DNA of 35,228 nucleotides from positions 1-35,228 of the forward strand of contig WQZD01000028.1 in the NCBI GenBank assembly GCA_009780915.1, given 5' to 3'. Each line of letters starts with the position of its first letter. The first letter of the stretch is position 1. The translations under genes were made by a program, and so were the position numbers. This stretch comes from Propionibacteriaceae bacterium. GTDB lineage: Bacteria; Actinomycetota; Actinomycetes; Propionibacteriales; Propionibacteriaceae. The notes beneath the pieces were generated by a model that worked only from the letters and a program-made list of their open reading frames with translations, had not been told where the DNA came from and ran no database searches. Shown piece after piece: positions 8,669 to 24,702 of the stretch.

Positions 8669-8684
8669 GGGCAAGGAGTGAGAA

Positions 8685-9557
8685 ATGAACGAAGCAGAAG
8701 TCAAGCGTCTCGTACGCGACGTGCTCGCCGGCCTGATGTCCAGTGACGCCACGACGGCCACGCCAACCACGTCAACCACGGGCCCCATGGTCGATCCCGG
8801 CGAGGCGCCGGACGTCACCGCGGTGTCCACGAAAGAGGAGTTCTTCGTGCCCCATCCTCACGATCGTGAGGGGTACATGGCCATGAAGCAGTCGACCGTC
8901 GCCCGCCTGGGCGTGTGGCGGGCCGGAGCACGGTACAACACCTGGTCGATGCTGCATTTCCGTGCCGATCACGCGACCGCGCAAGACGCCGTCTTCATGG
9001 ACGTCGACCCCGAGTGGGCGCCGTCCCAGGGGTTCGTCTGCGGCCAGACCGTGTGCCAGAGCAAGGACGAGTTCTTGACCCGTCCCGACTTGGGCCGCAA
9101 GCTCGACGACGAGACGAAGGCCCTGTTCGCCAAGCAACTGACGAGAGGCGCCAAGGTCACCATCATGGTGGGCGACGGCCTGTCCAGTTCGGCGATGGTG
9201 AACATCCCCGAGGTCCTGCCGGCCATCAAGCAGGGTTTGAAAGGTTTCGGCATCGACGTCGGACCGGTCCCGTACATCAAGTACGCCCGTGTGGGCGCGA
9301 TGGACGACCTCGGCCCGCTGATCGACTCCGAGGTGGTCGTCCTCTTGATCGGTGAACGGCCCGGGCTGGCCACCGGCGAGTCGATGAGCGCGTACATGGC
9401 GTACAAGCCCAATCCCGACCGTCCCGAGAGTTGGCGCACCGTGGTGTCCAACATCTATCGCGGGGGCACACCCCCTGCCGAGGCGGGCGCGCATATCGCC
9501 ACCATCGTCAAGCGCATGCTGGACGAGAAGGTGTCCGGTGTCGATCTTCGGATGTGA
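8685..9557 (+). CDS. eutC: Ethanolamine ammonia-lyase small subunit (canonical copy)
   Basis: The 290-residue protein is EutC, which with EutB binds adenosylcobalamin. Family landmarks are RAGARYNT, FRADHATAQDAVF, DGLSSSAM, GERPGLATGES and VVSNIYRGGTPPAEAGA. Residues 1-20 (NEAEVKRLVRDVLAGLM) form an amphipathic helix, followed by a Thr/Pro-rich linker. This matches the encapsulation signal reported for EutC N-termini in other microcompartments. AAGGAG with 7-nt spacing supports ATG 8685. It pairs with eutB1 immediately upstream. Confidence 0.97.
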   Translation: MNEAEVKRLVRDVLAGLMSSDATTATPTTSTTGPMVDPGEAPDVTAVSTKEEFFVPHPHDREGYMAMKQSTVARLGVWRAGARYNTWSMLHFRADHATAQDAVFMDVDPEWAPSQGFVCGQTVCQSKDEFLTRPDLGRKLDDETKALFAKQLTRGAKVTIMVGDGLSSSAMVNIPEVLPAIKQGLKGFGIDVGPVPYIKYARVGAMDDLGPLIDSEVVVLLIGERPGLATGESMSAYMAYKPNPDRPESWRTVVSNIYRGGTPPAEAGAHIATIVKRMLDEKVSGVDLRM

Positions 9558-9590
9558 CATCGCAGGCATATCGGACTCATGGAGGTGAAC

Positions 9591-11057: not shown

Positions 11058-11132
11058 CGGGCAGGGAAAACACGAATCACCACACCACACATTCATCATC
11101 AACAACACACAACCACGTAAGGAGTACACAAA

Positions 11133-11435
11133 ATGGCCGAAAATAACAGTTTCAGCATCGCGCTGGGGATGGTCGAGACCAAAGGATTGGTCGCATCGAT
11201 CGAGGCAGCCGACGCCATGGTCAAGGCAGCTAACGTCACATTGATCGGGAAGGTCCATGTGGGCGGCGGCCTGGTCACCGTCATGATCAGGGGCGATGTG
11301 GGCGCCGTGAAGGCCGCCACGGATGCCGGCGCGGCGGCCGCCGATCGCATCGGCGACCTGGTCAGCGTCCATGTCATCCCGCGTCCCCACAGCGAAGTGG
11401 AATTCATTCTGCCGACCTTGAAGACGACCGACTGA
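11133..11435 (+). CDS. eutM: BMC-H hexameric shell protein (EutM/PduA-like)
   Basis: The 100-residue single BMC domain protein is very close in pattern to Eut[21 protein letters not shown] at residues about 12-31, a pore loop KVHVGGGLV near 45-53, [18 protein letters not shown], and the end [11 protein letters not shown]. Hexamers tile the microcompartment facets and their central pore passes small polar substrates. AAGGAG with ideal spacing precedes the start. The upstream 65 nt are rich in A and C and almost free of G, hence unstructured, and a strong hairpin follows the gene. Both suit high expression of a major shell protein. A close paralogue with a long tail lies at 20193. Confidence 0.95.
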
Positions 11436-11454
11436 TCGGAACGTCCACGTGGGT

Positions 11455-11490
11455 CTGGCCTGACCAGCGCCTCGCGCCCGGTCAGGCCAG
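11455..11490 (+). other. Strong intercistronic stem-loop between eutM and eutT
   Basis: A perfect 11-bp stem (CTGGCCTGACC at 11455-11465, GGTCAGGCCAG at 11480-11490) encloses a 14-nt loop with no T-run after it. It is better explained as an mRNA-stabilising or processing element, or a partial attenuator downstream of the shell gene, than as a full terminator, since the operon continues. Confidence 0.6.
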
Positions 11491-11535
11491 GCTCACCACA
11501 CCCAACTTTCGACATCCACGAGGAGGTGGACGGGC

Positions 11536-12381
11536 ATGGCACTGGTGACTGAATCGACACTGCGCGAGCAGTTCTGTAATCCCGCCGCGCTGGCCGGCAC
11601 ACGATACGAGGCGCCGGCGGGCACGGTGGTGTCCCCGGCGGCCCGGGCGTGGCTGATCGACCAGAGAATGGACCTGGTGATCGGCGGCAAGGTGATCTTC
11701 GCGGCCCCCCGCTGCGATCGGGTGGTGGTCGACCAGGTCAAGCCTGAGCCGGTCGCCGGAGCGCCCTCGCTCCCCGATGACCCGGGAGCGACGCAGGTCC
11801 CCGCGTCGGCGCTGCCGGCGTTCACCCGTCCCGAGCTCTTCGACGTCGTCGACGGCAGCCAGCTCGCGGACAAGCCCGAGCATCTCACAGCCCTGCGCGG
11901 CAACCTCCTCGTGCCGAAGGGCCATCCCCAGATCCGATTCAGGGGATTGCTCGACTCCTTGGAGGCGGAGATCCTGGTCGCCCAAGTGGAGTTCCTCCGT
12001 GAGGGGTCCACCGCCGGTGTGGCCGATCTGGGCGAGGTCTTGCGCTATGTCAAGAACATCCTGCGCAGCGAGGTCCTCGACCAGCCCTTCGGCCACGTGG
12101 CCCTCTTCGGCTTCGACGACGAGGAACTGCGGCGCCGCTCGCACCACCCCAAGGATTATTACGGCATCCCGCACTTCGCCACATCGGCGGAAGACGGCCT
12201 AGGGGTCGTCCTCCTGAACCGGTTGCGGACGAAGGTCCGCGAAGTGGAACTGGCGGCCTACGACGCGTTCGCCGTCGGCGGCACCCAACCCCCCACGCGG
12301 ATCGACCTGATCCGAGCCCTGAACCGGCTGTCCTCAGCCGTGTACATCATGATGTTCAAAGCAAAGATTAAGGAGTACTGA
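11536..12381 (+). CDS. eutT: Corrinoid adenosyltransferase EutT
   Basis: The 281-residue protein makes adenosylcobalamin for EutBC. The C-terminal half carries the EutT/PduO-type signature: FRGLLDSLEAEIL, LLNRLRTKVREVE and ALNRLSSAVYIMM. The N-terminal third has the EutT layout, with a SPAARAWLIDQRMDLVIGG segment. The CCxxC metal motif known before the 'KP..LT.L' segment in the enterobacterial enzyme is absent. At the equivalent place (residues about 100-118) there is no Cys. This resembles metal-site variation among EutT proteins and may change metal use. The stop overlaps the pduL start (TGATG at 12379-12383). Confidence 0.88.
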   Translation: MALVTESTLREQFCNPAALAGTRYEAPAGTVVSPAARAWLIDQRMDLVIGGKVIFAAPRCDRVVVDQVKPEPVAGAPSLPDDPGATQVPASALPAFTRPELFDVVDGSQLADKPEHLTALRGNLLVPKGHPQIRFRGLLDSLEAEILVAQVEFLREGSTAGVADLGEVLRYVKNILRSEVLDQPFGHVALFGFDDEELRRRSHHPKDYYGIPHFATSAEDGLGVVLLNRLRTKVREVELAAYDAFAVGGTQPPTRIDLIRALNRLSSAVYIMMFKAKIKEY

Positions 12382-13004
12382 TGATTGACGAGCTGATCGA
12401 TCGGGTCTACGCCGACGTGGCCTTCCGCCTCAGTCGCCCAGTTGTCGAACTGGAAGCCTCGGGGCGCCATCTCCATCTGTCCCGGGCCGACGCCGACCAG
12501 CTGCTCGGCCCCGGCGTCCCCCTGACTCCCGTCCACGACCTGAGCCAGCCCGGCCAGTACACCTGCGCCGAGCGCATCCGCGTCATCGGCCCCAAGGGGG
12601 AGTTCCCCTCCCTGGTCGTCGTCGGGCCTGAGCGGGCCCAGAGCCAGATCGAACTGTCCCTGACCGACGCCAAGGTCCTCGGAGTCACCGCGCCGGTACG
12701 CCTGTCGGGCGACCTGGCGAAGACTCCCGGGGTGACGCTGGTCGGCCCGGCCGGGCGCGTCGACCTCACATCGGGGGTCATGATCGCGCAACGCCACATC
12801 CATATGGACCCCGCGTACGCCTCCCTCCACGGCATCCGGGACCGACAGGTCGTGTCGGTACGGGTCTGGGGCGACCGGGGCATGACCTTCCACAACGTCA
12901 TCGTGCGACTGTCTCCCGACTTCGCCACCTATATGCACATCGACTACGACGAGGCCAACGCCTGCGGATTCCGCGCAGGGATGCTCGGCACCGTCATCAT
13001 CTGA
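12381..13004 (+). CDS. pduL: Phosphate propanoyl/acetyltransferase, PduL type
   Basis: The 207-residue protein is a PduL-type (PTAC) phosphotransacylase, which converts acetyl-CoA to acetyl phosphate and releases CoA inside the shell. Two beta-barrel halves are marked by ASGRHLHLS (about 31-39) and RHIHMDP (about 139-145), and by YMHIDYDEANAC near the end. The His residues bind the two zinc ions in the family. Residues 2-18 (IDELIDRVYADVAFRLS) form an amphipathic encapsulation helix as in known PduL proteins. The start overlaps the eutT stop by one base, implying translational coupling. It replaces the EutD enzyme of enterobacterial eut operons. Confidence 0.93.
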   Translation: MIDELIDRVYADVAFRLSRPVVELEASGRHLHLSRADADQLLGPGVPLTPVHDLSQPGQYTCAERIRVIGPKGEFPSLVVVGPERAQSQIELSLTDAKVLGVTAPVRLSGDLAKTPGVTLVGPAGRVDLTSGVMIAQRHIHMDPAYASLHGIRDRQVVSVRVWGDRGMTFHNVIVRLSPDFATYMHIDYDEANACGFRAGMLGTVII

Positions 13005-13046
13005 CAGGCACGCGGGGTCGGCCCCCGCACACAGAGAGGAAAGACC

Positions 13047-13508
13047 ATGGACAACGAAAAACTCATAGACGCTGTCACGAGAATCATCATGGAGCGTCTC
13101 GCCGAATCCGGTTCCTGCCACGACTCGGCGGCCACGTCGGTCGTCACCTTTGGCGACGTGCCCGAATGCCTGGTGAGTGAAGGCTTCACGTCACGCCAGG
13201 GGTCGAGCGCATCGGACACCGACGGCGCAGACTTCATCGTGCTCACGCAAGCGGCGTTCCGCGCCTTCCATGGGGGAGCCATCCCCGCAGGATTGGCGGG
13301 TGTGGCGGCGACGCCGTCCGAGGTCGGCGCCAAGTCGTGCTGCGCGGGCGCCGTCGTCGACCTGACGGGAAAGAAAGTCATCTCCGAGAACCAGGTCCGT
13401 GGACTGAACATGCCCACCGGCTGGGTCGTCAAGGTCGACGGCAACGCCATCGTGACCGCCCTGGCGCGTGACTATGTCATCAGCCATGGCGGAAAGATCG
13501 TCAGCTGA
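13047..13508 (+). CDS. PduM-like microcompartment accessory protein
   Basis: This is a 153-residue protein. Residues 2-20 (NEKLIDAVTRIIMERLAE) form a typical amphipathic targeting helix. The C-terminal part (VVDLTGKKVISENQV, then AIVTALARDYV..HGGKIV) resembles the end of PduM (LVTALARE...), a protein needed for shell assembly in Salmonella. It also resembles the uncharacterised 'ethanolamine utilization protein' family found in non-proteobacterial eut operons. No catalytic motif is visible; the middle is Gly/Ala-rich with a CC pair near residue 98. It has a good AGAGGA ribosome site and sits between pduL and pduS. Its function is unknown. Confidence 0.55.
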   Translation: MDNEKLIDAVTRIIMERLAESGSCHDSAATSVVTFGDVPECLVSEGFTSRQGSSASDTDGADFIVLTQAAFRAFHGGAIPAGLAGVAATPSEVGAKSCCAGAVVDLTGKKVISENQVRGLNMPTGWVVKVDGNAIVTALARDYVISHGGKIVS

Positions 13509-13527
13509 CGAGAGGGATAGCACGCAC

Positions 13528-14862
13528 ATGAGTCTCGAGCAGCAAGTCTTCACCGCCGGGGTCGTCGGAGCCGGGGGCGCCGGCTTCCCGACGTACAAGA
13601 AACTGACCCCGGGCGCCGACATGCTCATCGTCAACGCGGCCGAATGCGAGCCCCTGTTGGCGTCGGACCGCTACCTCATGCGTCATCGCGCCGCCGAGGT
13701 CGTCGCGGGGGCGCGAGCCGTGGCCGACGCCTGCCAGATCCCGCAGATCGTCATCGGGACCAAGTCGCACTACACCCGGGAGATCGCCGCGTTGCAGGCG
13801 GCCATCGCCGACCAGGGGAGCGCGATCCGCATCCATGGCGTCGACTCCTTCTATCCCGCCGGCGACGAACAAGTACTGATCTTCGAGGTCACGGGCCGCA
13901 GCGTCCCTCCCGGAGGGCTGCCGGGGGACGTGGGCGCGATGACCATCAACGTCACGACCGCTGCGAACATCGCCGCGGCCATGGCGGGCACCCCCGTCGT
14001 GCGGCGCCTGGTGACGGTGACCGGCGAGGTGTCCCGGCCTGTGGTGGTCGACGCTCCCGTGGGCGCCACGGCGGCCGACCTGATCGGCGCCGCAGGGGGT
14101 GCCACGGTCGATCCGTACGTGATCGTCCGCGGCGGGCCGATGATGGGCAAGCTGGTCGACGGCTCACACGCGGCCACAGTGGGGTACGGCAAGGCCGACG
14201 GGGGGCTGATCGTGCTGAGCGCCGACCATCCCTTGGTGCGGTTCGTCGCCAAGCCTGTGGACCGGGCCCTCAACGAGACCAAGTCGATGTGCATCCAGTG
14301 CCAGATGTGCACGCAGTTGTGCCCGCGCTACCTGATCGGCCACCAGATACGCCCGCACCGGGTGATGCGGGCCCTCCAGAACGGGATCGACGACGCGTTG
14401 ACCGACGCCTTGCTCTGTTGCGAATGCGGGATCTGCGAGCTGTACTCATGCCCCATGGGCCTCAGCCCGCGCAAGATGAACGTCTACGTCAAGGGGATGT
14501 TGAGGGCGCAGGGCGTGACCGTCGACGACCACAGCGTCCATCCCGCCCAGACCGACGAGCGGGCGTATCGCAGGATCGCCCAGTCCCGGTTCATCGACCG
14601 CTGGAAGCTGGGGGCGTACCCCACGTCCATCGAGGACTGTGTACGGCTCGACCCCGACGAAGTGCGGTTGCCCACCCGTCATGGCGTGGGCATGGCGGCC
14701 CGTCCATGCGTCGCCGTGGGGGACCGCGTCGCTGTGGGCGACACCGTCGCACAAGTGGACTTCGGGCAGGTCGGAGCGCCGGTCCACGCGTCCATCGACG
14801 GGCGTGTCAGCGAGGTCGACGACGCCCACATCACGATCCTGCGGGAAGAGAGGCCATCATGA
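13528..14862 (+). CDS. pduS: PduS-like cobalamin reductase / RnfC-type electron carrier
   Basis: The 444-residue protein has an RnfC/Nqo1-like N-terminus. The Gly-rich VGAGGAGFPTYKK motif (about 12-24) suggests flavin/NADH binding. Two 4Fe-4S motifs follow: Cys255-x2-Cys258-x2-Cys261-x3-Cys265-Pro, and Cys297/298-x-Cys300-x2-Cys303-x4-Cys308-Pro. A C-terminal sandwich-hybrid domain ends the protein. PduS reduces cobalamin for adenosylation in propanediol microcompartments. Here it would serve EutT or transfer electrons through PduT, whose gene overlaps by 4 bp (ATGA at 14859-14862). The frame is open up to 13468, but ATG 13528, with AGAGGGA upstream, gives the family N-terminus. PduS is not part of the classical enterobacterial eut operon. 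Confidence 0.9.
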   Translation: MSLEQQVFTAGVVGAGGAGFPTYKKLTPGADMLIVNAAECEPLLASDRYLMRHRAAEVVAGARAVADACQIPQIVIGTKSHYTREIAALQAAIADQGSAIRIHGVDSFYPAGDEQVLIFEVTGRSVPPGGLPGDVGAMTINVTTAANIAAAMAGTPVVRRLVTVTGEVSRPVVVDAPVGATAADLIGAAGGATVDPYVIVRGGPMMGKLVDGSHAATVGYGKADGGLIVLSADHPLVRFVAKPVDRALNETKSMCIQCQMCTQLCPRYLIGHQIRPHRVMRALQNGIDDALTDALLCCECGICELYSCPMGLSPRKMNVYVKGMLRAQGVTVDDHSVHPAQTDERAYRRIAQSRFIDRWKLGAYPTSIEDCVRLDPDEVRLPTRHGVGMAARPCVAVGDRVAVGDTVAQVDFGQVGAPVHASIDGRVSEVDDAHITILREERPS

Positions 14863-15407
14863 TCACCAGTATCGGGCTCGTGGAGCTGACGTCCATCGCC
14901 AGAGGGGTCGAGACCGCCGACGCCATGCTGAAGGCCAGCGACGCCGCCTTGGCTTTCGCCAAACCGGTCTGTCCGGGCAAGTTCATCATCTTGATCCACG
15001 GTGACGTCGGCTCGGTGAACGAGTCGATGACGGCGGGTCTGGGGGTCGGCGCCGACAAGGTGGTCAATCACCTGGTGATTCCCCGCGTCCACCCCGACCT
15101 TCTCGCGGCCATGAACGGCGTGTCGGCGGTCGGGCCCGTCGAGGCGCTGGGCGTCGTGGAGTTCTTCGACATCGCGTCGGCGATCATCGCCGCCGACGCG
15201 GCCGCCAAGGCTGGACGGGTGACCTTGATCGAGGTGCGTCTCGGCTTGGGGATCGGGGGGAAGAGCTTCTTCAAGCTGTGCGGTGAAGTGGCCGATGTGA
15301 AGGCCTCCGTGGGGGCGGCGATGTCCGCCCTGGGTTCGCGCGGACAGGTGGTGTCCAGTTGTGTCATCCCCGCCCCGGACCCCGTGTTGTTCACAGAGAT
15401 GATGTGA
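14859..15407 (+). CDS. pduT: PduT-like BMC-T shell protein with Fe-S site
   Basis: The 182-residue protein has two BMC domains: GLVELTSIARGVETADAML at the start, and ALGVVEFFDIASAIIAADAA near residue 94-113. This is the PduT size and layout. Cys38 in AKPVCPGKF is at the position of the Cys that holds the pore 4Fe-4S cluster in the PduT trimer. It would pass electrons across the shell, probably with PduS, whose stop codon overlaps this start. The correct frame is only this short segment of a longer open frame that begins inside pduS; the earlier part is an antisense-like artefact. Confidence 0.92.
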   Translation: MITSIGLVELTSIARGVETADAMLKASDAALAFAKPVCPGKFIILIHGDVGSVNESMTAGLGVGADKVVNHLVIPRVHPDLLAAMNGVSAVGPVEALGVVEFFDIASAIIAADAAAKAGRVTLIEVRLGLGIGGKSFFKLCGEVADVKASVGAAMSALGSRGQVVSSCVIPAPDPVLFTEMM

Positions 15408-15424
15408 GGGGGTGTCCGCGAGCC

Positions 15425-15634
15425 ATGGGTAGTCTGATTCTCGCACTGGTGTTCTTCGCCAGCGGCGCCACCTTCCTCAAGAACTCACGCCCTTCTCAAT
15501 CGGGCGGCTCGACGCCGTCCCGAGGCCTGGCAGCGATGCCGGCGAAGAGGAAATCAATCCTGGGAGGGTTCCTGCTGGTGGTTGGCGTGCTAGTGCTCGG
15601 GTACTGGCTCGTGAGCATCGTGAGCGGGGGGTAG
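15425..15634 (+). CDS. Small membrane protein of unknown function
   Basis: This 69-residue protein has two hydrophobic segments: residues 3-16 (SLILALVFFASGAT) and 44-65 (KSILGGFLLVVGVLVLGYWLV). A Ser/Pro/Arg-rich loop separates them. The ATG at 15425 follows GAGGGGG with about 11 nt. It lies 17 bp after pduT and 102 bp before eutH, in the same direction. I recognise no family. Its position suggests a role with the transporter or simply a resident small gene. Coding status is moderately supported by the clean membrane pattern. Confidence 0.5.
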   Translation: MGSLILALVFFASGATFLKNSRPSQSGGSTPSRGLAAMPAKRKSILGGFLLVVGVLVLGYWLVSIVSGG

Positions 15635-15736
15635 TGGTCGAGATGACAAGCGAACATAGTCGAACTTCAACCGTCGACCGGCAACGACGCCGACGACGAG
15701 ACAAAGCATAACTGGCAAAAAGGAGAAGTGATAAAC

Positions 15737-17029
15737 ATGGGAAATGTTAGTCAAATAATCATCTACATCATGTTGCTGTTCATGGTGATCGGCGTCATTG
15801 ACAAGGTGTTTTTCAGTAATAAGTGGGGGTACGGGGCCAAATTCGAAGAAGGCATGGAAGCCATGGGCGTGCTCGCGCTCGCCATGGTCGGCATCATGTG
15901 CTTCGCCCCCGTGCTCGGTGACTGGCTCAAGGGCCCCGTGGGCGCCGTGTTCGGGGTGATCGGGGCGGACCCAGCCATGTTCGCCGGCTCTCTGCTGGCC
16001 AATGACATGGGAGGCTTCCCCCTCGCGGGGGCTATGACGAGCGACCAGGGGATCCACATCCTGTCCGGTCTGTTCATGGGCTGCATGATGGGCGCGACCA
16101 TCGTCTTCTCGATCCCCGTCTCGCTGGGGATCATCGACAAAGAGGACCGCCCCTTCCTGGCCCGTGGCATGCTGGCCGGTTTCATCTCCATCCCCTTCGG
16201 CGTCTTCATCGCTGGCGTGATGTACATGATCAGCTTCAACAGCACTGCTGTGGGCATGGCAGACCCCCTCACCGTGGGCAAGATCCTCATCAACCTCGTC
16301 CCCTCGGCCGTGTTGGCCATCCTGATGGCCGTGGGCCTCGCGCTCATCCCCAATGGCATGATGAAGGGGTTCAACGTCTTCGCGATCTTCATCTCGGGCG
16401 CCATCACCCTGATGCTGTGCCTGGCCATCCTCAACAAGTTGGGCCTGCTGCTCGGCTCGGCCGGCGAGAACGGCTCCTCGCTCGTGAGTTGGATCCCCTT
16501 CGTGGGCGCCGAGGGGTCGCAGACGGACATCCAGATGGCCCCCATCGGGCCTCAGCTGGAGACGGCTGGCATCATCGCCATCACGTTGGCGGGCGCCTTC
16601 CCCTTCGTCCACTTCATCACCACGGTGCTGAACAAGCCCGTCGCGGCCCTGGGCCGTCTCATGGGCGTCAACGAGAACTCGGCCGCCGGCATGATCGCCG
16701 CCCTGGCCAACAACATCCCCATGTTCGGGACGATGAAAGACATGGACAAGCGGGGCAAGGTCGTCGCGGTGGCCTTCTCCGTGTGCGCGTCCTTCGCCTT
16801 GGGCGACCACCTCGGCTACGCCGCTGGTGTGGCGCCTGACGCGATCTTCGCCATGGTCGTCGGCAAGTTGTGCGGTGGCGTCATCGGCATCTTCGTCGCG
16901 ATCCTGTTGGCCGTGCGCGGCCTAGAAGTGATCAAGGGGCATCGCCACGGACTGCCCGACGACGGTTCGGCTGGCGCCGACCTGTCGATCGGCGCCGATG
17001 CGGCCTCCGAGGGACAGGCGAGCGTCTGA
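15737..17029 (+). CDS. eutH: Ethanolamine transporter EutH
   Basis: The 430-residue polytopic membrane protein has about ten hydrophobic segments. Family landmarks are IGVIDKVF, FEEGMEAMGVLALAMVGIM, SLLANDMGGFPLA, LANNIPMFGTMKDMDKRG and FALGDHLGYAAG. EutH imports ethanolamine and matters most at low substrate or low pH. AGGAGA at 15721-15726 has 10-nt spacing to ATG 15737 but only 1 nt to GTG 15728, so 15737 is chosen. The C-terminal tail is hydrophilic and acidic. It separates the first enzyme/shell block from the second eutBC pair. Confidence 0.96.
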   Translation: MGNVSQIIIYIMLLFMVIGVIDKVFFSNKWGYGAKFEEGMEAMGVLALAMVGIMCFAPVLGDWLKGPVGAVFGVIGADPAMFAGSLLANDMGGFPLAGAMTSDQGIHILSGLFMGCMMGATIVFSIPVSLGIIDKEDRPFLARGMLAGFISIPFGVFIAGVMYMISFNSTAVGMADPLTVGKILINLVPSAVLAILMAVGLALIPNGMMKGFNVFAIFISGAITLMLCLAILNKLGLLLGSAGENGSSLVSWIPFVGAEGSQTDIQMAPIGPQLETAGIIAITLAGAFPFVHFITTVLNKPVAALGRLMGVNENSAAGMIAALANNIPMFGTMKDMDKRGKVVAVAFSVCASFALGDHLGYAAGVAPDAIFAMVVGKLCGGVIGIFVAILLAVRGLEVIKGHRHGLPDDGSAGADLSIGADAASEGQASV

Positions 17030-17096
17030 TCCGGGCATGGCGGCGCCGATCCGCGCCGCCGCTCGGAGACGCTGGAGGACTCACGAAGGAGAAGAC

Positions 17097-18470
17097 ATGT
17101 CACCGACGTTGACGACGACGTTGCACGGCAACGTCTACACGTTCGCGGATCTCAAGGAACTCTTCGGCAAGGCCAATGAGGAGAAGTCTGGTGATCACCT
17201 GATCGGCATCGGCGCGACGACCGTGACCGAGAGGATCGCCGCCAAGATCGTGCTGAGCAATCTGAGGTTGTCAGACATCCGCGAGAACCCGCTCATCCCG
17301 CCCGACGAGGACGAGGTGTCCCGGGTGATCGAGGAGAACACCAATGAGACGGTGTATCAGAGCATCCGGTCCTGGACGGTGGGCGAGTTGAGGGACTGGC
17401 TGCTGAGCCACCAGACCACGACGAGCGACATCGAGACGGCACGGCGCGGGCTGACAGCGGAGATGGTCGCCGCCGTGGCGAAACTGATGAGCAGCGCGGA
17501 CCTGGTCTACGGCGCGTCGAAGATGCGCGTGACCGGCAAGTGCCGGTACGAGATCGGCAAGCCGGGCACCCTGTCGTACCGCGTCCAGCCCAACCACCCC
17601 AAGGACGATCCAGCCGGGATCCGGGCGAGCCTCTTCGAGGGATTGTCGTACGCCTCCGGCGACTGCGTCCTCGGGGTCAACCCGGTCGAGGACACGGTGG
17701 CCAACACCACCAGGATCCTCGACACGTTGTACGAGGTGATGGAGGATCTGAGGGTCCCCACGCACATCTGCTGCTTGTCCCATGTGTCCACGCAGATGGA
17801 AGCGGTCGAGAAGGGCGCCCCTTCGTCGATGTTCTTCCAATCGGTGGCCGGAACCCAGGACGCGAACACCGACTTCGGCGTCACTGTCGACCTCCTGGAT
17901 GAGGCGTTCGCCCTGATCAGGAAGAAGGGCCTGTGCGCGGGGCCGAATCTGATGTACTTCGAGACCGGCCAAGGCTCCGAGGTGTCCATCGGAGCGGACC
18001 ACGGCGTGGACGAGATGACCCTGGAGGCGCGTACCTATGGCTTCGCCAAGCGGTACTCGCCGTTCATGGTGAACAACGTCTCCGGGTTCATCGGGCCCGA
18101 GACGATCTATGACGGCAAGCAGATGATCCGGGCCAACCTGGAGGACCATTTCATGGGCAAGCTGACCGGCCTGCCGATGGGCATGGCGCCCTGCTACACC
18201 AATCACACGGGCATCGACCAGAACGATCAGGAGATCGCGACGATGCTGCTCGCCATGGCAGGGGCCAACTATTACATGGGAGTCCCCGGTGGCGACGACA
18301 TCATGTTGAGCTACCAGGACACCAGTTATCACGACGATGCGACGTTGAGGGAGTTGTTGGGGCTGACCCCGGCCCCTGAGTTCTTCGTCTGGGCCCAGGA
18401 ATGGGGCATCCTGGACGACCGCGGCCGGTTGACCGCCCGCGCTGGCGACGCTTCCATGTTCACGAGATGA
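17097..18470 (+). CDS. eutB2: Second, divergent EutB-family lyase large subunit
   Basis: The 457-residue EutB paralogue is collinear with EutB1 over its whole length (two extra N-terminal residues). It keeps Arg/Gln in YRVQPN, Asn in GVNPVED, Glu289 in YFETGQGS, Phe in SGFIGPE and Met in NYYMGVP. The position of E. coli Asp362 is Ala364 (codon 18186-18188), in MGMAPCYTNH instead of MGCDACYTNH, and the neighbouring Cys is Met. Asp362 contacts the substrate in the E. coli enzyme, so activity or substrate range probably differs. GAAGGAG supports ATG 17097. It is paired with its own eutC2, so it is a second enzyme rather than a decayed copy. The frame is intact. Confidence 0.95.
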   Translation: MSPTLTTTLHGNVYTFADLKELFGKANEEKSGDHLIGIGATTVTERIAAKIVLSNLRLSDIRENPLIPPDEDEVSRVIEENTNETVYQSIRSWTVGELRDWLLSHQTTTSDIETARRGLTAEMVAAVAKLMSSADLVYGASKMRVTGKCRYEIGKPGTLSYRVQPNHPKDDPAGIRASLFEGLSYASGDCVLGVNPVEDTVANTTRILDTLYEVMEDLRVPTHICCLSHVSTQMEAVEKGAPSSMFFQSVAGTQDANTDFGVTVDLLDEAFALIRKKGLCAGPNLMYFETGQGSEVSIGADHGVDEMTLEARTYGFAKRYSPFMVNNVSGFIGPETIYDGKQMIRANLEDHFMGKLTGLPMGMAPCYTNHTGIDQNDQEIATMLLAMAGANYYMGVPGGDDIMLSYQDTSYHDDATLRELLGLTPAPEFFVWAQEWGILDDRGRLTARAGDASMFTR

Positions 18471-18483
18471 AGGAGGGTGGACG

Positions 18484-19368
18484 ATGAACCAGACGTATGA
18501 CGAATCCGACATCAAGGCGATGGTGAGCCAGATCCTGGCCACCATGGTCGGGACTGATCCGACATCCCCGTCGTCGGCGCCTGTGGCGTCGCCGGGGGTC
18601 CCGGCGACCACCTGGATGTGCGACGACCAGACGACCGCCGAGCAGATGCTCGCCGTGCCCGACCCCGTCGACCGCCAGGCTCTGGTGGAGATGATGCGGG
18701 CCACCTCGGCTCGTATCGGGCGATGGCGGGCCGGGCCTCGGCCCACCTGCGCCTCCCTGTTGCGCTTCCGGGCGGACCACGCCGCCGCCATGGACGCCGT
18801 CTTCAACGACGTGTCGACCTCGTTGATGGAGTCCCTGGGCCTGTGCTGCGTGCAGAGCGAGGCGGGGGACAAGGCCGCGTACCTGATGGATCCCGCCATC
18901 GGAGCGCGTTTCTCGTCCCAGACGGCGAAAGAGATCTCGGACCGCTGCGCCCATGGGGCGCAGGTCCAGATACTGGTGTCCGACGGACTGTCCTCCACAG
19001 CGGTGGAGGCCAATCTGGCGGATCTGCTTCCAGCGTTGCTCCAGGGCCTGAAGCGCCATGGGTTGACGGTGGGGACGACCATGTTCGTCCGATACGGGCG
19101 AGTGCGCGTCATGGACGAGGTCAGCGCCCTGCTGACCCCCGAGGTGACGCTCATCCTGCTCGGTGAACGCCCTGGGTTGGTGACCAACGAGTCCTTGAGT
19201 TGTTATATGACGTACAAGGGCTATCCAGGGGCGCCAGAGAATATTCGTACGGTGGTGTCGAATATTTATCGCATGGGAACACCACCAACCGAAGCGGGAG
19301 CCTATATCGCCGACATCGCCAAGAAGATGATCGAGGCCAAAGTCAGCGGTATGGATCTCAAACTATGA
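18484..19368 (+). CDS. eutC2: Second EutC-family lyase small subunit
   Basis: The 294-residue EutC paralogue has the same landmarks as EutC1: RAGPRPT, FRADHAAAMDAVF, DGLSSTAV, GERPGLVTNES and VVSNIYRMGTPPTEAGA. The N-terminal helix YDESDIKAMVSQILATMVG is a predicted encapsulation signal followed by a Pro/Ser/Ala linker. The middle differs from EutC1, with more Cys residues (SLGLCCVQSE) and TCASLL instead of NTWSML after the RAGPR motif. AAGGAGGGTGGACG precedes ATG 18484, 13 bp after eutB2. It probably forms a separate complex with EutB2. Confidence 0.95.
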   Translation: MNQTYDESDIKAMVSQILATMVGTDPTSPSSAPVASPGVPATTWMCDDQTTAEQMLAVPDPVDRQALVEMMRATSARIGRWRAGPRPTCASLLRFRADHAAAMDAVFNDVSTSLMESLGLCCVQSEAGDKAAYLMDPAIGARFSSQTAKEISDRCAHGAQVQILVSDGLSSTAVEANLADLLPALLQGLKRHGLTVGTTMFVRYGRVRVMDEVSALLTPEVTLILLGERPGLVTNESLSCYMTYKGYPGAPENIRTVVSNIYRMGTPPTEAGAYIADIAKKMIEAKVSGMDLKL

Positions 19369-19525
19369 CAGGTCAAGTCGTGTCCCGACCGTCCCTGCCG
19401 GTGGCGATCCTCACCGATCGTCCCCGCCAGGGGCTGTGGGGGCAGGTCCCCAGGAGTCCATCCGACCGAGACGATGGGCTTCGCAAGTATATGAGAACAG
19501 ATGTCAACGAGGAGGTTGTCAGCTC

Positions 19526-20179
19526 ATGATTAATGATCCATTGAAAGCCACGATACTGAGCACGAAGATCATTCCCAGGGTGAACGAGGAACTGAAAGCG
19601 TCACTCGAACTGCCCGCCGACCATCACGCCATCGGGTTGTTCACGGCGGACATCGACGATGTCGCGTACACCGCGTTGGACGAGGCGACGAAGAAAGCCG
19701 ACGTCAAGGTCGCGTACGCCAAGTCCTTCTATGGCGGCGCCGCCAACGCCAACACCAAGTTGGCCGGTGAGATCATCGGGATCATCTCGGGACCCAATCC
19801 CGCGGAGATCCGGGCGGGGCTCGACGCGATCTATGCCATGGTGGAAAACGAGGCATGGTTCTATAGCGCCAACGAGGATGACAGCGTGTGTTACTACGCC
19901 TACTGCATCTCGCGCAGCGGTTCCTACCTCTCCGAGGTGGCGGGAGTCCCCGAAGGGACGGCCATCGCCTATCTCATCGCGCCGCCTGAGGAGTCCATTT
20001 ACGGGCTCGACGCAGCCCTGAAGGCCGCCGACGTCACTCTGAGCGCCTTCTACGGGCCTCCGAGCGAGACGAACTTCGGCGGCGGGCTCTTGACCGGCGA
20101 GCAGAGCGCCTGCAAGGCGGCCTGCTTGGCGTTCGCCGAGGCCGTCAAGTCGGTCGCCGCGAACCCCACCGAGTACTGA
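19526..20179 (+). CDS. eutL: BMC-T shell protein EutL
   Basis: The 217-residue double-BMC shell protein matches EutL through its full length: MINDPLKATILSTKIIPRVN at the start, SFYGGAANANTKLAGEIIGI near residue 66-85, YYAYCISRSGSYLS, and ETNFGGGLLTGEQSACKAAC near the end. EutL trimers have gated pores and bind ethanolamine, which lowers pore opening. GAGGAGG at 19509-19515 with 10-nt spacing fixes the start, although the frame is open to 19436. The 157 bp upstream, after eutC2, hold no gene but contain several G/C-rich short repeats that could fold. Confidence 0.95.
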   Translation: MINDPLKATILSTKIIPRVNEELKASLELPADHHAIGLFTADIDDVAYTALDEATKKADVKVAYAKSFYGGAANANTKLAGEIIGIISGPNPAEIRAGLDAIYAMVENEAWFYSANEDDSVCYYAYCISRSGSYLSEVAGVPEGTAIAYLIAPPEESIYGLDAALKAADVTLSAFYGPPSETNFGGGLLTGEQSACKAACLAFAEAVKSVAANPTEY

Positions 20180-20192
20180 GTCGCATCCGGTC

Positions 20193-20774
20193 ATGGACGC
20201 AATCGGAATGGTGGAGACCAGGGGGCTGGTCGCGTCGGTCGAGGCTGCCGATTCCATGGTCAAAGCGGCCCAGGTGAGCCTGGTCCGCAAAGACCATGTC
20301 GGCGGTGGCCTCGTGACCATCGTCGTGACGGGCGATGTGGGGGCGGTGAAGGCATCGGTGGACGCCGGGGCGGCCGCCGCGTCACGAGTCGGTCGCCTCG
20401 TCAGCACCCACGTGATCCCTCGCCCGGATGGGGCGGTGCAGGAGATGCTGACGCGCTCCGGTGCGGTGCTCGGAGGCCTCCAGCCGCCGAGCGGGGACGC
20501 GCCGGCCGAGGCGGCCGTGGAGACCAGCCACGTCATGGAGCACCCAGACGTCGAGTCGGACGACTTCGACGACGGGGATGACGAAGTGGGGGACCAGGAC
20601 GCCGTGGATGTGCCTGCGGTTCTGAGCGAAGAGGCGTTGGAAGCCATGTCGGTGGTCCACTTGAGGACCCTCGCCAGGGCGGAGTCCGCCTTCCCGATGG
20701 CCAAGGCCCAGGTGCGATCAGCTCGCAAGGAAGAGCTGATCGAGGAACTGGTCCGTATCTATCGGACTCGCTGA
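20193..20774 (+). CDS. eutK: BMC-H shell protein with acidic linker and Rho-N/SAP-like C-terminal domain (EutK/PduK-like)
   Basis: Residues 1-90 are a BMC domain nearly matching the 11133 shell protein ([43 protein letters not shown]), so the two arose by duplication. A disordered linker follows, with the acidic stretch ESDDFDDGDDEVGDQD (about 112-127). The last about 45 residues (L..MSVVHLRTLARAE...ARKEELIEELVRIY) look like a Rho-N/SAP-type helical module. E. coli EutK likewise has a C-terminal helix-turn-helix thought to bind nucleic acid. A role linking shell and nucleic acid or cargo is inference. The ribosome site is weak; the start is 13 bp after eutL. Confidence 0.85.
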   Translation: MDAIGMVETRGLVASVEAADSMVKAAQVSLVRKDHVGGGLVTIVVTGDVGAVKASVDAGAAAASRVGRLVSTHVIPRPDGAVQEMLTRSGAVLGGLQPPSGDAPAEAAVETSHVMEHPDVESDDFDDGDDEVGDQDAVDVPAVLSEEALEAMSVVHLRTLARAESAFPMAKAQVRSARKEELIEELVRIYRTR

Positions 20775-20790
20775 GCGAGCGGGGCGAGTG

Positions 20791-21612
20791 ATGCTGTCGG
20801 ATTCCACGATCCTCACGTTGAACGGTTCCGTGGCGGCCTTGCGCCACACGGGACAGGTGGACGCGGGCGCGTCGCTGAAGTGCGGAGTCGATCTGGGGAC
20901 GGCCTCGATCGTCGAGGTCGTTCTCACGGGTGACGGCAGGCCGGTGGCCTGCGAGATCCAGCCGTGCCAGATAGCCCGGGACGGACTCGTCGTGGACTAT
21001 TTCGGGGCCATCCAGATCGTCAAGAGGCTCACCGACTCGTTGAGGCGGCGTCTGGACCGGCCCATCGAGCAGGCGGCCATCGCCGTGCCTCCCGGCACGT
21101 CGGCACGCGACTGTGGCACGCATCGGCATGTCGTGGAAGCGGCTGGCCTGGAGGTGGCCGCCATCGTGGATGAGCCCACGGCGGCCAACTCGGTCCTCGG
21201 AGTGGTCAACGGGGTCGTGGTCGACATCGGAGGTGGAACCACCGGGTTATCGGTCTTCGAAGATTCCAAGGTGGTCTACGTCGCCGACGAGGCCACCGGC
21301 GGAACCCATATGAGCCTGGTCCTGATGGGGCGTTTCGGCCTCACCTTCGACGAGGCTGAGAAGTTCAAAGCGGACCCGGACAGGGTCGCGGAAGTGAAGG
21401 AAGCGGTACGACCGGTGGCCGAGAAGATGGCCACCATCGTGGGCCGACACCTCGCGGGAGGCCACGTCGAGAACGTGTGGCTCGTCGGGGGTTCGGCTGG
21501 ACTGGACGGCATGGAGGAGATCTTCGCCGATCACCTAGGCGTCCCGGTCCACAAGCCGCCGCATCCGATGATGGTGACTCCCGTGGGGATCGCCATGAAC
21601 CAACCTAGTTGA
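20791..21612 (+). CDS. eutJ: EutJ, DnaK-like ATPase/chaperone
   Basis: The 273-residue actin/Hsp70-fold protein matches EutJ. CGVDLGTASIVEVVL (about 30-44) is the phosphate-1 loop, DEPTAANSVLG lies near residue 130, VVDIGGGTTGLSVF (about 143-156) is phosphate-2, and WLVGGSAGL near 230 is the adenosine motif. EutJ is proposed to assist folding or assembly of microcompartment enzymes; its exact task is not established. GGGGCGAG precedes both GTG 20788 and ATG 20791, and I take the ATG. Only 13-16 bp follow the eutK-like stop. Confidence 0.92.
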   Translation: MLSDSTILTLNGSVAALRHTGQVDAGASLKCGVDLGTASIVEVVLTGDGRPVACEIQPCQIARDGLVVDYFGAIQIVKRLTDSLRRRLDRPIEQAAIAVPPGTSARDCGTHRHVVEAAGLEVAAIVDEPTAANSVLGVVNGVVVDIGGGTTGLSVFEDSKVVYVADEATGGTHMSLVLMGRFGLTFDEAEKFKADPDRVAEVKEAVRPVAEKMATIVGRHLAGGHVENVWLVGGSAGLDGMEEIFADHLGVPVHKPPHPMMVTPVGIAMNQPS

Positions 21613-21622
21613 GGAGGTAGCC

Positions 21623-21922
21623 ATGCTCGTGGGCACGGTGATAGGAAATGTGTGGGCGACAAGGAAGAACGAGGAGCTCAGCGGATGCAAATTGATGATC
21701 GTCGATCCGCTGCGGTTCCCCGGCCGTGCGCGGGCGTACCCCATCGTCGCCGTCGACCAGATCGGCGCCGGCGTGGGTGAGACGGTCTTGGTCGTGTCGG
21801 GCAGCTCTGCCCGGATCAGCGTCGGGTCGGGGGATCTCCCCATCGACCATGTCATCGTCGGCGTCGTGGACGAGGTCGATCTGGCTGACGAGAGCCAATG
21901 GGCCGACGACGGCCCCCAGTAG
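21623..21922 (+). CDS. eutN: BMC-P pentameric vertex protein EutN
   Basis: The 99-residue CcmL/EutN family protein begins MLVGTVIGNVWATRKNEELS and has LMIVDPL near residue 24. A DQIGAGVGETVLVVSGSSAR run follows at about 49-68, and VIVGVVDEVD at the end. Pentamers of this family close the vertices of the shell. GGAGGTAGCC gives a strong ribosome site, and the start lies 10 bp after eutJ. It is the only vertex protein in the window. Confidence 0.96.
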   Translation: MLVGTVIGNVWATRKNEELSGCKLMIVDPLRFPGRARAYPIVAVDQIGAGVGETVLVVSGSSARISVGSGDLPIDHVIVGVVDEVDLADESQWADDGPQ

Positions 21923-21960
21923 TGATGAAGGACAACCAGTGAAGAAGGATGGAACCCCCT

Positions 21961-22419
21961 ATGGTCATCAATGAAGATATCTTAGTGCGCATCATTCGCG
22001 ATGTGATCGAAGAGCAGGCGGGCGCCCTTCCGCGGGACGCGGGCGCCCCACGATGGAAGGACGCCTCGGGCGTGATCGGCATCGATCCCACGAGGATCCC
22101 CACCGAGGATTTCCCCTTTCCCATCGAGTCCCCGCCGTCGAGCGTACGCCTGGTCGACGTGGTGAGCCTGGAGGAGAGCCCCCGGCTCGGCTGCGGGATC
22201 ATGGAGATGGACCACACCAGTTTCGAGTGGACCCTGAAGTACGACGAGATCGACTACGTCATCGAGGGCACTCTGGAACTGATCATGGATGGTCGTCCCG
22301 TGAGGGCTGAGAAGGGGCAGATCCTGTTCATCCCGAAGAACACGACCCTGCGCTTCTCCACGCCTGACACGGCGCGTTTCCTGTACGTCTGTTACCCGGC
22401 GAACTGGGCCGACCAGTGA
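21961..22419 (+). CDS. eutQ: EutQ, cupin-type acetate kinase-like protein
   Basis: The 152-residue protein has the EutQ cupin domain: [33 protein letters not shown] near residue 83-103, and [14 protein letters not shown] near 117-130. EutQ of Salmonella has acetate kinase activity and is needed for anaerobic use of ethanolamine. The N-terminal helix [18 protein letters not shown] looks like a microcompartment targeting peptide. AAGGA at 21945-21949 favours ATG 21961 over ATG 21949, which overlaps it. It lies in the shell block between eutN and eutS. Confidence 0.93.
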
Positions 22420-22429
22420 GGGGCCTGTC

Positions 22430-22798
22430 ATGGTGAGCGCCATGGATCAGGACAAACAACGCATCATCCAGGAGTTCGTTCCTGGCAAACAGGTGACGCT
22501 GGCTCATCTGATCGCCAACCCCGTGGACAACCTCACGACCAAGTTGGGGCTGGTCAAGGGTGAGCGCGAGGGCGCCAACGCCATCGGCATCTTGACGATC
22601 ACCCCGTCGGAGGCGTCCATCATCGCCGCCGACGTGGCCACGAAAGCGGCCATGGTCGAGATCGGTTTCGTGGACCGGTTCTCAGGGGCGGTGCTGATCA
22701 CCGGGGACGTGCAGGCGGTCGAGTCGGCCCTCAAGGCGGTCCTCGACCTCCTGGGCGCCCGCATGGGGTTCGCGCCCACGGCGATCACCCGGTCCTAG
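22430..22798 (+). CDS. eutS: BMC-H shell protein EutS
   Basis: The 122-residue circularly permuted BMC protein of the EutS/PduU family begins with [19 protein letters not shown], almost identical to the E. coli EutS start. It continues with [20 protein letters not shown] and [20 protein letters not shown]. EutS hexamers are bent and are thought to shape shell edges. GAGGGG with 6-nt spacing supports ATG 22430; an in-frame ATG at 22442 gives the more usual N-terminus and cannot be excluded. The start is 11 bp after eutQ. Confidence 0.95.
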
Positions 22799-22816
22799 GC
22801 GAGGCGGTGATCGTAG

Positions 22817-23275
22817 GTGAAGGAGACGATATTGATGGGGATGAGCGGATGCGGCAAGACCACCTTGATCCAGGCGCTCATGGGCGAGGCGTTGCGCTAC
22901 GCCAAGACCCAGACGATTCAGCGTCATCTGACGTTCATCGACACCCCGGGGGAGTACATCGAGAGGCGGTACTTGTACCGTGCCCTGATCGTGACGGCGG
23001 CTGACGCGCAGATGATCGGGCTCGTGCAAGAGGTGGGACGGGAATCCAGCTGGATCCCGCCGGCCTTCGCGACCACCTTCGCCAAGCCGGTCTTCGGGGT
23101 GGTCTCCAAGATCGACATGGCCGGCGACCGGTGGGACATCGCGCATGCGCGTGAGGCGTTGGAACGGGCGGGGGCCGACCCGGTGTTCGAGGTCTCCGCG
23201 ACCGAGGGGGTCGGCCTGGACGCGTTGTGGGCCTTCCTCGACGACGGTTCACCTGACGTAGGGGTGTCGCCATGA
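22817..23275 (+). CDS. eutP: EutP/PduV small P-loop protein
   Basis: The 152-residue Ras-like P-loop protein has Walker [11 protein letters not shown] (about 8-17), switch-like [12 protein letters not shown] (about 40-51) and SKID near residue 96 as the NKxD-type motif. EutP of Salmonella has been reported to have acetate kinase activity, and PduV relatives associate with the shell exterior. The start codon is GTG 22817, giving MKETILMG, which fits the family start. The stop overlaps eutA by 4 bp (ATGA at 23272-23275). Confidence 0.9.
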
Positions 23276-24702
23276 AGGACCAGCTCCTGTCCGTCGGGAT
23301 CGACGTGGGCACGACCACGTCGCAAGTCGTGTTCTCTGTGATCACGATCGAAGACCTGTCCTCCGGATTCACCGTGCCACGTGTGGAGATCGTCGGCAAG
23401 GAGATCGTCTATCGCTCGGACATCCACTTCACGCCCCTGCTCTCGCCGACGAGGATCGACTCGGCGGCGTTGCGCGAGGTGGTCGAGTTGGAGTATCGCA
23501 TGGCGGGGGTGAACCCTCACGAGGTCAAGACCGGCGCTGTGGTCATCACCGGGGAGACGGCCCGCAAAGACAACGCCGACGAGGTGGCCCGGTACCTCTC
23601 CGACTTGGCTGGAGACTTCGTGGTGGCCACGGCCGGACCGACTCTGGAGAGCGTGCTCGCCGGTCGCGGCGCCGGGGCCGACGTGTACTCGCGCCAGCAC
23701 TCGACGGCCGTCGCCAACTACGACATCGGCGGGGGGACCAGCAACTTCGTCCTCTTCGACCACGGGGAACCTGTCAGCGCCAGTTGCCTGGACATCGGCG
23801 GTCGGCTGATCCGGGTGGATCGTACCCAATCCCGCGTGACCTACATCGCGGAGAAGATCGCCGAGTTGTGCGCCGATCGGGGCATCCGGATCGCGGTGGG
23901 CGACCGTGCCGACCCGGACACCCTGGCCCAGGTCGCCCAAGCCATGTGCGAACTCCTGGAGATGAGCCTGGGCCTGCGTCCGAAATCGGCGTTCTATCCC
24001 AGGATCCTGACCGAACCGGGCCGCGACGTCGTCATTCCGAAGCCCCTGAGCCACCTGATGTTCTCCGGCGGGGTGGCCGACTGCGTCCTGCAGTCCCCGG
24101 AGGATCCCTTCGCGTATGGCGACCTGGGCGTGTTCTTGGGGCAGGCCATCCGCGAGTCCGTCCTCCTGCGGGCGGTGCCCCGGGTGTCGGCGGTCGAGAC
24201 CATCCGTGCCACCGTGGTGGGGGCTGGCACCCACATCACCAAGCTGTCGGGGTCCACCATCGAGTACGACCCCTCTCTGTTGCCGATCAAGAACCTCCCG
24301 GCGTTGAAGCTGACCGCCGACGAGGAGGCGGACCCCCTCGCGATGGCACGGGCCATCTCCGAGCGGCTGGACTGGTTCTCCCTCGACGGGCGACCTCATC
24401 CGGTGGCGATCTCGTTCGTCGGTCCGGTGAGTCCCACGTTCGCGCGTGTCCAGCAGATGGCCGACGCTATCGTCACCGCCGTCGCCCCCGTCACGGCCCA
24501 GGGCGTCCCTCTGATCGTGGTCACGGAGTCCGATCTGGCCAAGGTCCTCGGCCAATCGATCCGCGCCCGACTGGGGGGAGCGGGGCGGTTCATCTGCATC
24601 GACTCCGTCGCCGTCCATTCCGGAGACTATGTGGACATCGGCGCCCCGGCGGCCGGCGGTGCCGTCCTCCCCGTCGTGGTCAAGACCCTGGTCTTTCGGT
24701 GA
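23272..24702 (+). CDS. eutA: Ethanolamine ammonia-lyase reactivating factor EutA
   Basis: The 476-residue actin-fold protein opens with [15 protein letters not shown] (phosphate-1) and has [15 protein letters not shown] near residue 149-163 (phosphate-2). It releases damaged cobalamin from EutBC at the cost of ATP so that fresh adenosylcobalamin can bind. [20 protein letters not shown] near residue 87-106 is typical. It is the last gene of the operon here, overlapping eutP; no clear terminator follows at 24703-24748. In many eut operons eutA precedes eutB, so the order here is rearranged. A single EutA would have to serve both lyases. Confidence 0.95.

Follow-up and report, generated by a model that had tools for sequence, protein, structure and literature searches.

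Ethanolamine ammonia-lyase (EAL, EutBC) of E. coli contacts its substrate through Arg160, Gln162, Asn193, Glu287, Phe329, Asp362 and Met392; Arg160, Asn193 and Glu287, together with Gln162 and Phe329, hold the hydroxyl group and drive the radical chemistry. The choline trimethylamine-lyase CutC belongs to a protein family unrelated to EutBC and uses a different radical source. In Pelobacter carbinolicus, one of two EutBC copies has been suggested as a possible choline trimethylamine-lyase, with ethanolamine and choline lyases perhaps being distinct (PMC3543383). E. limosum demethylates choline by means of the kinase MthK, an EamA/LicB-like transporter and the MttB-superfamily protein MthB, leaving dimethylaminoethanol (PMC12155760). 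Here we describe eutB2, a gene for an EAL-family large subunit that has no Asp362, in a 35,228-nt contig of a Propionibacteriaceae bacterium (WQZD01000028.1, assembly GCA_009780915.1, positions 1 to 35,228 of the forward strand), the whole of which we refer to as the window.

The eutB2 gene (17097–18470; this and all other window features given below are on the plus strand) encodes a protein of 457 aa that matches NF011649 with 621.7 bits (cut-off 554) and PF06751 with 648.6 bits (cut-off 25), which places it in the EutB family. The gene for its partner small subunit, eutC2 (18484–19368; NF003971, 268.6 bits, cut-off 230), lies 13 bp 3′ of it. EutB2 resembles known EutBC (PDB 3abo and 2qez) in whole-length homology, catalytic residues, an accompanying EutC and EutA, and a compartment context. 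The in-frame translation of 18168–18206 is GLPMGMAPCYTNH, in which the motif MGMAPCYTNH (18177–18206) begins at residue 361 and puts Ala364 (codon 18186–18188) at the Asp362 position. In EutB1, the other large subunit of the locus (7301–8668; 455 aa; NF011649, 675.5 bits, cut-off 554), the motif is MGCDACYTNH and begins at residue 359, so that its Asp is residue 362; its alignment with EutB2 has 254 identities over 457 positions (56%). Asp also stands opposite Ala364 in the aligned PDB sequences 2qez_A and 3abo_A, the latter of which we take to be the E. coli enzyme. The equivalents of Arg160, Gln162, Asn193, Glu287, Phe329 and Met392 are retained in the same alignment. Translation and alignment thus bear out what an earlier, sequence-only reading had claimed, namely Ala364 in EutB2 for Asp362 in EutB1, Met for the preceding Cys, and retention of the remaining named active-site residues. 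A sequencing or frame error is ruled out: the ORF is intact, with an ATG start preceded by AAGGAG, and the triplet MAP occurs in 22 rows (including that of the window) and IAP in 12 rows of the 132-row protein set described below. A literature search for EAL together with Asp362 returned nothing usable on the role of that residue.

EutB proteins without Asp362 form a large, coherent and conserved sub-family. We gathered EutB proteins by genome searches with EutB2 or PF06751, covering 57 relatives, 198 genomes of the family, 396 of the phylum, five named genomes and 14 named loci, as well as 398 phylum and 299 family genomes of a Lachnospiraceae metagenome-assembled genome (MAG) and 35 genomes of an Actinomycetota family. 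The fetched set comprised 132 distinct near-full-length proteins, one of which is an EutB-EutC fusion (L016; G, L and C numbers are our handles for genomes, loci and contigs), leaving 131 unfused. This set covers part of the matches; examples of EutBs outside it, with residue 362 unread, are the second copies in G631, G751, G914 and several Propionibacteriaceae, the third copy in G728, and that of G968. Residue 362 is Asp in 95 of the 131 unfused proteins and another residue in 36 (35 Ala, 1 Gly), a proportion that is not a frequency because most loci were chosen for their likeness to EutB2. Pro comes next in 34 Asp-less proteins, and the triplet at 361–363 of all 36 reads M/I-A-P in 34, V-A-Q in one and M-G-C in one; the fusion has I-S-P. 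The M-A-P sub-family whose existence the sequence-only reading had raised is therefore real, although its motif is broader. When the motif triplet was masked for tree building, a single branch parted the 36 Asp-less from the 95 Asp-type proteins (ultrafast bootstrap 100, Shimodaira–Hasegawa-like approximate likelihood ratio test 99, 200 of 200 bootstrap trees). This tree is unrooted and gives no polarity to the Asp and Ala states; it omits the fusion, which has a long branch and which in a quick tree falls among the Asp-less rows with a support of 26. EutB2 is on the Asp-less side and carries the group marks 362A, 376Q, 379A, 327S and 406D. Since the 36 proteins without Asp, out of 131, make up one side of a single branch and so form a discrete group, we conclude that its loss in EutB2 is more than chance.

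Asp-less EutB is no single-species quirk, being present across Propionibacteriaceae (five relatives of EutB2 at 79–88% identity and ten at 59–62%), two further Actinomycetota families and Bacillota. Among named relatives, those closest to EutB2 come mostly from Propionibacteriaceae MAGs, which, going by their isolate names, are termite-gut genomes. EutB matches also occur in 149 plasmid records, all below 60% identity; residue 362 was not read in these, and they hence have no bearing on the group. Two loci depart from the usual motif. The EutB of L204 (G904:C90, 9855–11213, minus strand) has MGVAQCYTNH, with Ala-Gln rather than Ala-Pro, and its gene lies in a compartment locus about 3 kb from an MttB gene that contains a TAG; both EutBs of G904 are without Asp362. 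The EutB of L173 (G706:C18, 7793–9151, plus strand) has LGMGCVYTNH, with Gly at 362; its genome contains four EutB matches.

The sequence-only reading held that a single contact had been lost from an otherwise intact pocket. This is too simple, as 18 further columns have changed, 17 of them within residues 287–412. Defining a column as type-specific if the overlap between the two sides is below 0.15 and one side is more than 60% uniform, we found 19 that part Asp-less from Asp-type proteins: 159, 294, 304, 311, 322, 325, 327, 334, 345, 361, 362, 363, 376, 379, 380, 385, 388, 406 and 412. Counting 362 itself, 18 of the 19 fall within residues 287–412 (binomial 1.5e-9 against an even spread, though the columns are not independent). 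Besides 362, four, seven and ten of the other 18 lie within three, five and eight residues, respectively, of one of the active-site residues named above (p = 0.086, 0.011 and 0.003). The coupled changes in the Asp-less group are T325N, V327S/T, Y334T, L379A/G and I376Q. A new Asp at position 406 in E. coli numbering (Asp408 of EutB2, codon 18318–18320) occurs in every Asp-less protein (36 of 36) and in no Asp-type protein (0 of 95); it comes after Tyr404 (131 of 131) and Gln405 (130 of 131), and on sequence grounds it may reach the pocket as a relocated carboxylate. It is thus a candidate for the substitute acidic side chain that the sequence-only reading named as counting against its own view. 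Columns 304 and 412 also become acidic, in 31 and 30 of the 36 Asp-less proteins. The fusion (L016, 9935–12127, plus strand), an EutB-EutC-length protein of Desulfosediminicola flagellatus with, by eye, TRAP-type transporter-like genes behind it, has Ser362 and Val406, yet it carries the other Asp-less marks 325N, 327T, 334T, 363P, 376Q and 379A. We conclude that a carboxylate swap from 362 to 406 is no rule of the wider group.

Decay of EutB2 is ruled out by selection and by the fully supported, conserved group to which it belongs. Comparing EutB2 with four relatives yields ratios of nonsynonymous to synonymous substitution rates (dN/dS) of 0.095–0.173; a further Asp-less pair has 0.15 and two Bacillota pairs have 0.042–0.044, giving 0.04–0.17 across seven Asp-less pairs, compared with 0.186 for an Asp-type pair; these ratios are rough because dS reaches 1.05. 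Arg160, Gln162, Asn193, Glu287 and Phe329 are invariant in all 36 Asp-less and all 95 Asp-type proteins. EutC adjoins the Asp-less EutB in most loci, with none called beside it in G564, and an Asp-less protein is the sole EutB match in nine genomes (G095, G107, G199, G966, G806, G678, G773, G667 and G1328), some of which are incomplete MAGs (G1328 is 73% complete). The contention of the sequence-only reading that EutB2 has an altered function rather than being in decay is well supported by these data, and we consider it quite likely that the function of EutB2 differs from that of an ordinary EutB.

We tentatively propose that EutB2C2 is an adenosylcobalamin-dependent amino-alcohol lyase with a rebuilt ammonium wall, cleaving an N-methylated ethanolamine to acetaldehyde and a methylamine; judged from sequence comparisons, the chance that this is correct falls a little short of even. 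The wall that holds the substrate ammonium group would have been rebuilt by loss of Asp362, mostly to Ala-Pro, together with the five coupled changes listed above, whereas Arg160, Asn193 and Glu287, plus Gln162 and Phe329, would stay to keep hydroxyl binding and radical chemistry. The rebuilt side would most likely admit N-methyl groups. Hydrogen would be removed from the carbinol carbon as usual and the methylated amine expelled, converting choline to trimethylamine and acetaldehyde, or dimethylethanolamine to dimethylamine and acetaldehyde. EutB1C1 would take ethanolamine, and both lyases, packed in the same compartment and served by a common EutA, would pass acetaldehyde to one acylating dehydrogenase and an EutD-type enzyme. 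That it is an N-methylated substrate which sets EutB2 apart functionally is, taken separately, plausible rather than probable. With still more reserve, the Asp362-less EutBC proteins at large may be a B12-dependent choline/N-methylethanolamine lyase family. Such a family, unrelated to CutC, would be an overlooked route by which trimethylamine or dimethylamine forms anaerobically in Actinomycetota and Bacillota, physically coupled in some Bacillota to pyrrolysine-type methylamine methyltransferases. The overall reaction proposed, from choline to trimethylamine and acetaldehyde within a compartment, would be that of CutC (TIGR04394), which is a glycyl radical enzyme; TIGR04394 has no match in the window genome.

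The type of aldehyde dehydrogenase is one indication of a change on nitrogen. The locus of eutB2 has a single acylating aldehyde dehydrogenase among its 20 scanned genes, and this enzyme (9579–11057) is of the acetaldehyde, EutE type (TIGR02518, 702.6 bits, cut-off 620.1). TIGR02518 is also the best model for the aldehyde dehydrogenases of all seven further loci in which one was tested, above cut-off in three; most of these loci also carry an Asp-type EutB. With two lyases feeding one acetaldehyde-type enzyme, an N-substituted ethanolamine fits better than a C-substituted one.

A second indication comes from one branch of Bacillota, in which some Asp-less loci have methylamine- and choline-type neighbours. 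Within the fetched windows, whose lengths vary (some contigs are short), MttB-family genes are present at seven of 16 Asp-less Bacillota loci (G966, G678, G773, G706, G732, G667 and the V-A-Q locus of G904) and at none of 39 Asp-type loci, or at one of 39 with the inclusion of the MttB gene of G690, which is 9.6 kb distant and at the edge of its fetched stretch (Fisher 5.6e-5 or 3.8e-4, kinship ignored). The MttB genes of G706, G966, G678 and G667 contain an in-frame TAG, and that of G904 shows one too; the two pieces of the G706 protein match TIGR02369 at positions 2–313 (397.8 bits) and 319–469 (213.1 bits), each below the whole-protein cut-off of 525. In G966, pylS (425.7 bits, cut-off 178.15) and pylB (575.1 bits, cut-off 348.2) lie 3–5 kb from the Asp-less EutB gene, adjoined by a gene for a PylD-N domain protein. 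Beside the Asp-less EutB genes of G706 and G667 are genes for a choline-kinase-family protein (PF01633, 80.7 bits, cut-off 29), an APH-family kinase, an EamA transporter, an MttB-like protein and a HAD hydrolase. Across whole genomes, we counted PylS and MTTB in 80 of the 89 genomes first listed (the nine omitted had no EutB match), with 39 of the 40 "Asp-only" genomes read at residue 362, G968 assumed, and G703 and G1035 (both fragmentary) and G975 (a weak match) left out. PylS is above cut-off in 10 of 14 Asp-less Bacillota, 4 of 40 Asp-only genomes, 0 of 11 genomes without an EutB match and 0 of 15 Actinomycetota; MTTB-family matches occur in 12 of 14, 11 of 40, 0 of 11 and 2 of 15 of these sets, and all of these genome-wide counts ignore kinship. 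CutC and dimethylamine methyltransferase were counted in another 80 genomes, with four instead of 11 lacking an EutB match, plus seven others. Dimethylamine methyltransferase is above cut-off in 7 of 14 Asp-less Bacillota, 3 of 40 Asp-only genomes and 0 of 18 Actinomycetota, and CutC in 1 of 14, 2 of 40 and 0 of 18, again with kinship ignored. Because the MttB and MtbB families are both commoner in Asp-less Bacillota genomes, these counts do not settle between dimethylamine and trimethylamine. L166 (G966:C4, 1846–19800) combines an ethanolamine-type compartment locus with flanking pylS, pylB, PylD-like and MttB genes, and a CutC match above cut-off lies about 36 kb away. The genes 3′ of the Asp-less genes in G083 (a GntR-type regulator, flavin amine oxidase, DHDPS, sodium:alanine symporter and Fe-ADH) were considered as hints to the substrate; no pathway follows from them.

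Two precedents also count in favour of an N-methylated substrate. The neighbour set of G706 and G667, a kinase, an EamA transporter and an MttB-superfamily protein, resembles, at the level of gene families, the phosphocholine-demethylation cluster of E. limosum, although the E. limosum route demethylates its substrate without cleaving the bond between nitrogen and the ethanol carbon (PMC12155760). The suggestion of a choline-lyase EutBC copy in P. carbinolicus likewise involves two paralogues, but there the subunits are fused, eutA is absent and the transporters are others, and residue 362 was not read (PMC3543383). Among the titles listed by our literature searches, which covered open-licence texts and left most subscription papers outside them, none dealt with Asp362-less EutB or linked such a protein to choline or methylated ethanolamines; the P. 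carbinolicus suggestion was the nearest.

Several observations weigh against an N-methylated substrate. Asp406 could restore the charge lost at 362. No MttB gene is found within the fetched window at nine of the 16 Asp-less Bacillota loci. The MttB probes were taken from Asp-less loci, and the seven loci that have an MttB gene fall in a single 13-row branch, so that the signal is phylogenetically dependent. About 3.5 kb separates the Asp-less lyase of G732 from an Asp-type one, and the methylamine gene there can therefore be assigned to neither. The Asp-type EutB compartment loci L186 (G690) and L197 (G891) are near choline-kinase-like genes, with EamA in G690 or PylB in G891, and since their EutBs carry the canonical residues, choline-type neighbours can accompany an ordinary ethanolamine enzyme. 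Profile searches of the window genome found no MttB, MtbB or CutC and no PylS above cut-off, and no choline gene was recognised near eutB2 or the corresponding genes of its Propionibacteriaceae relatives, few of whose neighbours were family-scanned, nor were methylamine-type genes recognised close to EutB2 in the Actinomycetota members; the substrate is thus extrapolated from one Bacillota branch. Lastly, the aldehyde dehydrogenase of G095, whose sole EutB is Asp-less, scores 566.9 bits, under the acetaldehyde cut-off of 620.1, and the fetched windows of five Bacillota genomes with only Asp-less EutB (G966, G806, G678, G773 and G667), which may cut loci, have no called aldehyde dehydrogenase.

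The main rival explanation is that EutB2C2 is still an ethanolamine lyase whose carboxylate has moved from 362 to 406, an isozyme that differs in kinetics, regulation or packing. We regard this as rather unlikely. It is favoured by the strict division of Asp406 between the two groups and its place directly after the conserved Tyr404-Gln405, and by the fact that EutB2 and EutB1 have their locus, EutH, EutA and aldehyde dehydrogenase in common; a basic ethanolamine enzyme would also explain the nine genomes with Asp-less EutB alone. However, the fusion, with Ser362 and Val406 among otherwise Asp-less marks, indicates that the swap is not universal, many more columns are altered than a swap requires, and two lyases for one substrate within one compartment need a reason.

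Less credible to us, and improbable overall, is that EutB2C2 acts on a C-substituted amino alcohol such as 2-amino-1-propanol, 1-amino-2-propanol or serinol, for which Asp362Ala and Leu379Ala/Gly would make room. Several side chains have indeed shrunk (L379A/G, Y334T and V327S/T), and E. coli EAL accepts 2-amino-1-propanol slowly, but the locus has no aldehyde dehydrogenase other than the acetaldehyde-type one, and the methylamine neighbours would be left unexplained. The aminotransferase and 1-amino-2-propanol dehydrogenase of Aut compartments (PMC6620236) have no counterpart among the 20 scanned locus genes (7301–24702). We think it very improbable that EutB2 has little or no catalytic activity and assists EutB1 in a structural or regulatory role, as the loss of a residue that holds the substrate amine and the presence of EutB1 in the same locus might suggest: five catalytic residues are fully conserved under purifying selection, most loci (G564 apart) have their own EutC, and genomes such as G678, G667 and G095, which carry shell genes and EutA in the locus, have an Asp-less protein as their only EutB match.

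NF011649 calls EutB2 an ethanolamine ammonia-lyase above its cut-off, and pathway predictions that equate any EutB with ethanolamine use could err for the Asp-less group. If an N-methylated substrate is correct, genomes without CutC could form methylamines from choline, a matter of relevance to how trimethylamine arises in animals and to how methanogens are supplied with methylamines. The Asp-less group is also a natural experiment on the carboxylate at 362 in B12 radical deamination.

The bacterial microcompartment (BMC) locus spans 7301–24702 and contains two lyase pairs, eutB1C1 (7301–9557) and eutB2C2 (17097–19368); EutB1 and EutB2 are the only EutB matches in the window genome (G000, 2.78 Mb, 45 contigs). 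Profile scans of its 20 genes identified one each of the EutD/PduL-type, EutT-like, EutH, EutA, EutN, EutP and EutQ proteins and five BMC-domain proteins. Beginning from the EutB1 side, eutC1 (8685–9557; NF003971, 270.8 bits, cut-off 230) is followed by the aldehyde dehydrogenase gene and by genes for a BMC shell protein that we label EutM-like (11133–11435; PF00936), an EutT-like corrinoid adenosyltransferase (11536–12381; NF011595, 123.7 bits, under the cut-off of 226) and an EutD/PduL-type phosphotransacylase (12381–13004; NF011652, 236.5 bits, cut-off 209; NF040837, 268.1 bits, under 315). An RnfC-like flavoprotein, which we label PduS (13468–14862; TIGR01945, 234.3 bits, under the cut-off of 245.95), and a shell protein with two BMC stretches, labelled PduT-like (14859–15407; PF00936 twice), precede the EutH-type carrier directly 5′ of eutB2 (15728–17029; top match NF011666, 405 bits, under the cut-off of 482). 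Downstream of eutC2 are three proteins to which we give the labels EutL-like (19526–20179; a shell protein with two BMC stretches, PF00936 twice), EutK-like (20193–20774; a shell protein with a C-terminal extension, PF00936) and EutJ (20788–21612; an actin/Hsp70-fold protein, PF11104, PF06723, PF14450 and PF00012). These are followed by the EutN shell vertex protein (21623–21922; PF03319), EutQ (21949–22419; PF06249), a BMC shell protein labelled EutS-like (22430–22798; PF00936), EutP (22817–23275; PF10662) and the lyase-reactivating factor EutA, the only one of the locus (23272–24702; NF007992, 609.7 bits, cut-off 598). A 153-aa protein without a Pfam match (13047–13508) sits between the EutD/PduL-type and PduS-like genes, as it also does in G004, G007 and G013. 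Elsewhere in the window, at 1148–2392, two adjoining small proteins (275 and 107 aa) have, by eye, the look of WXG100-type secreted proteins.

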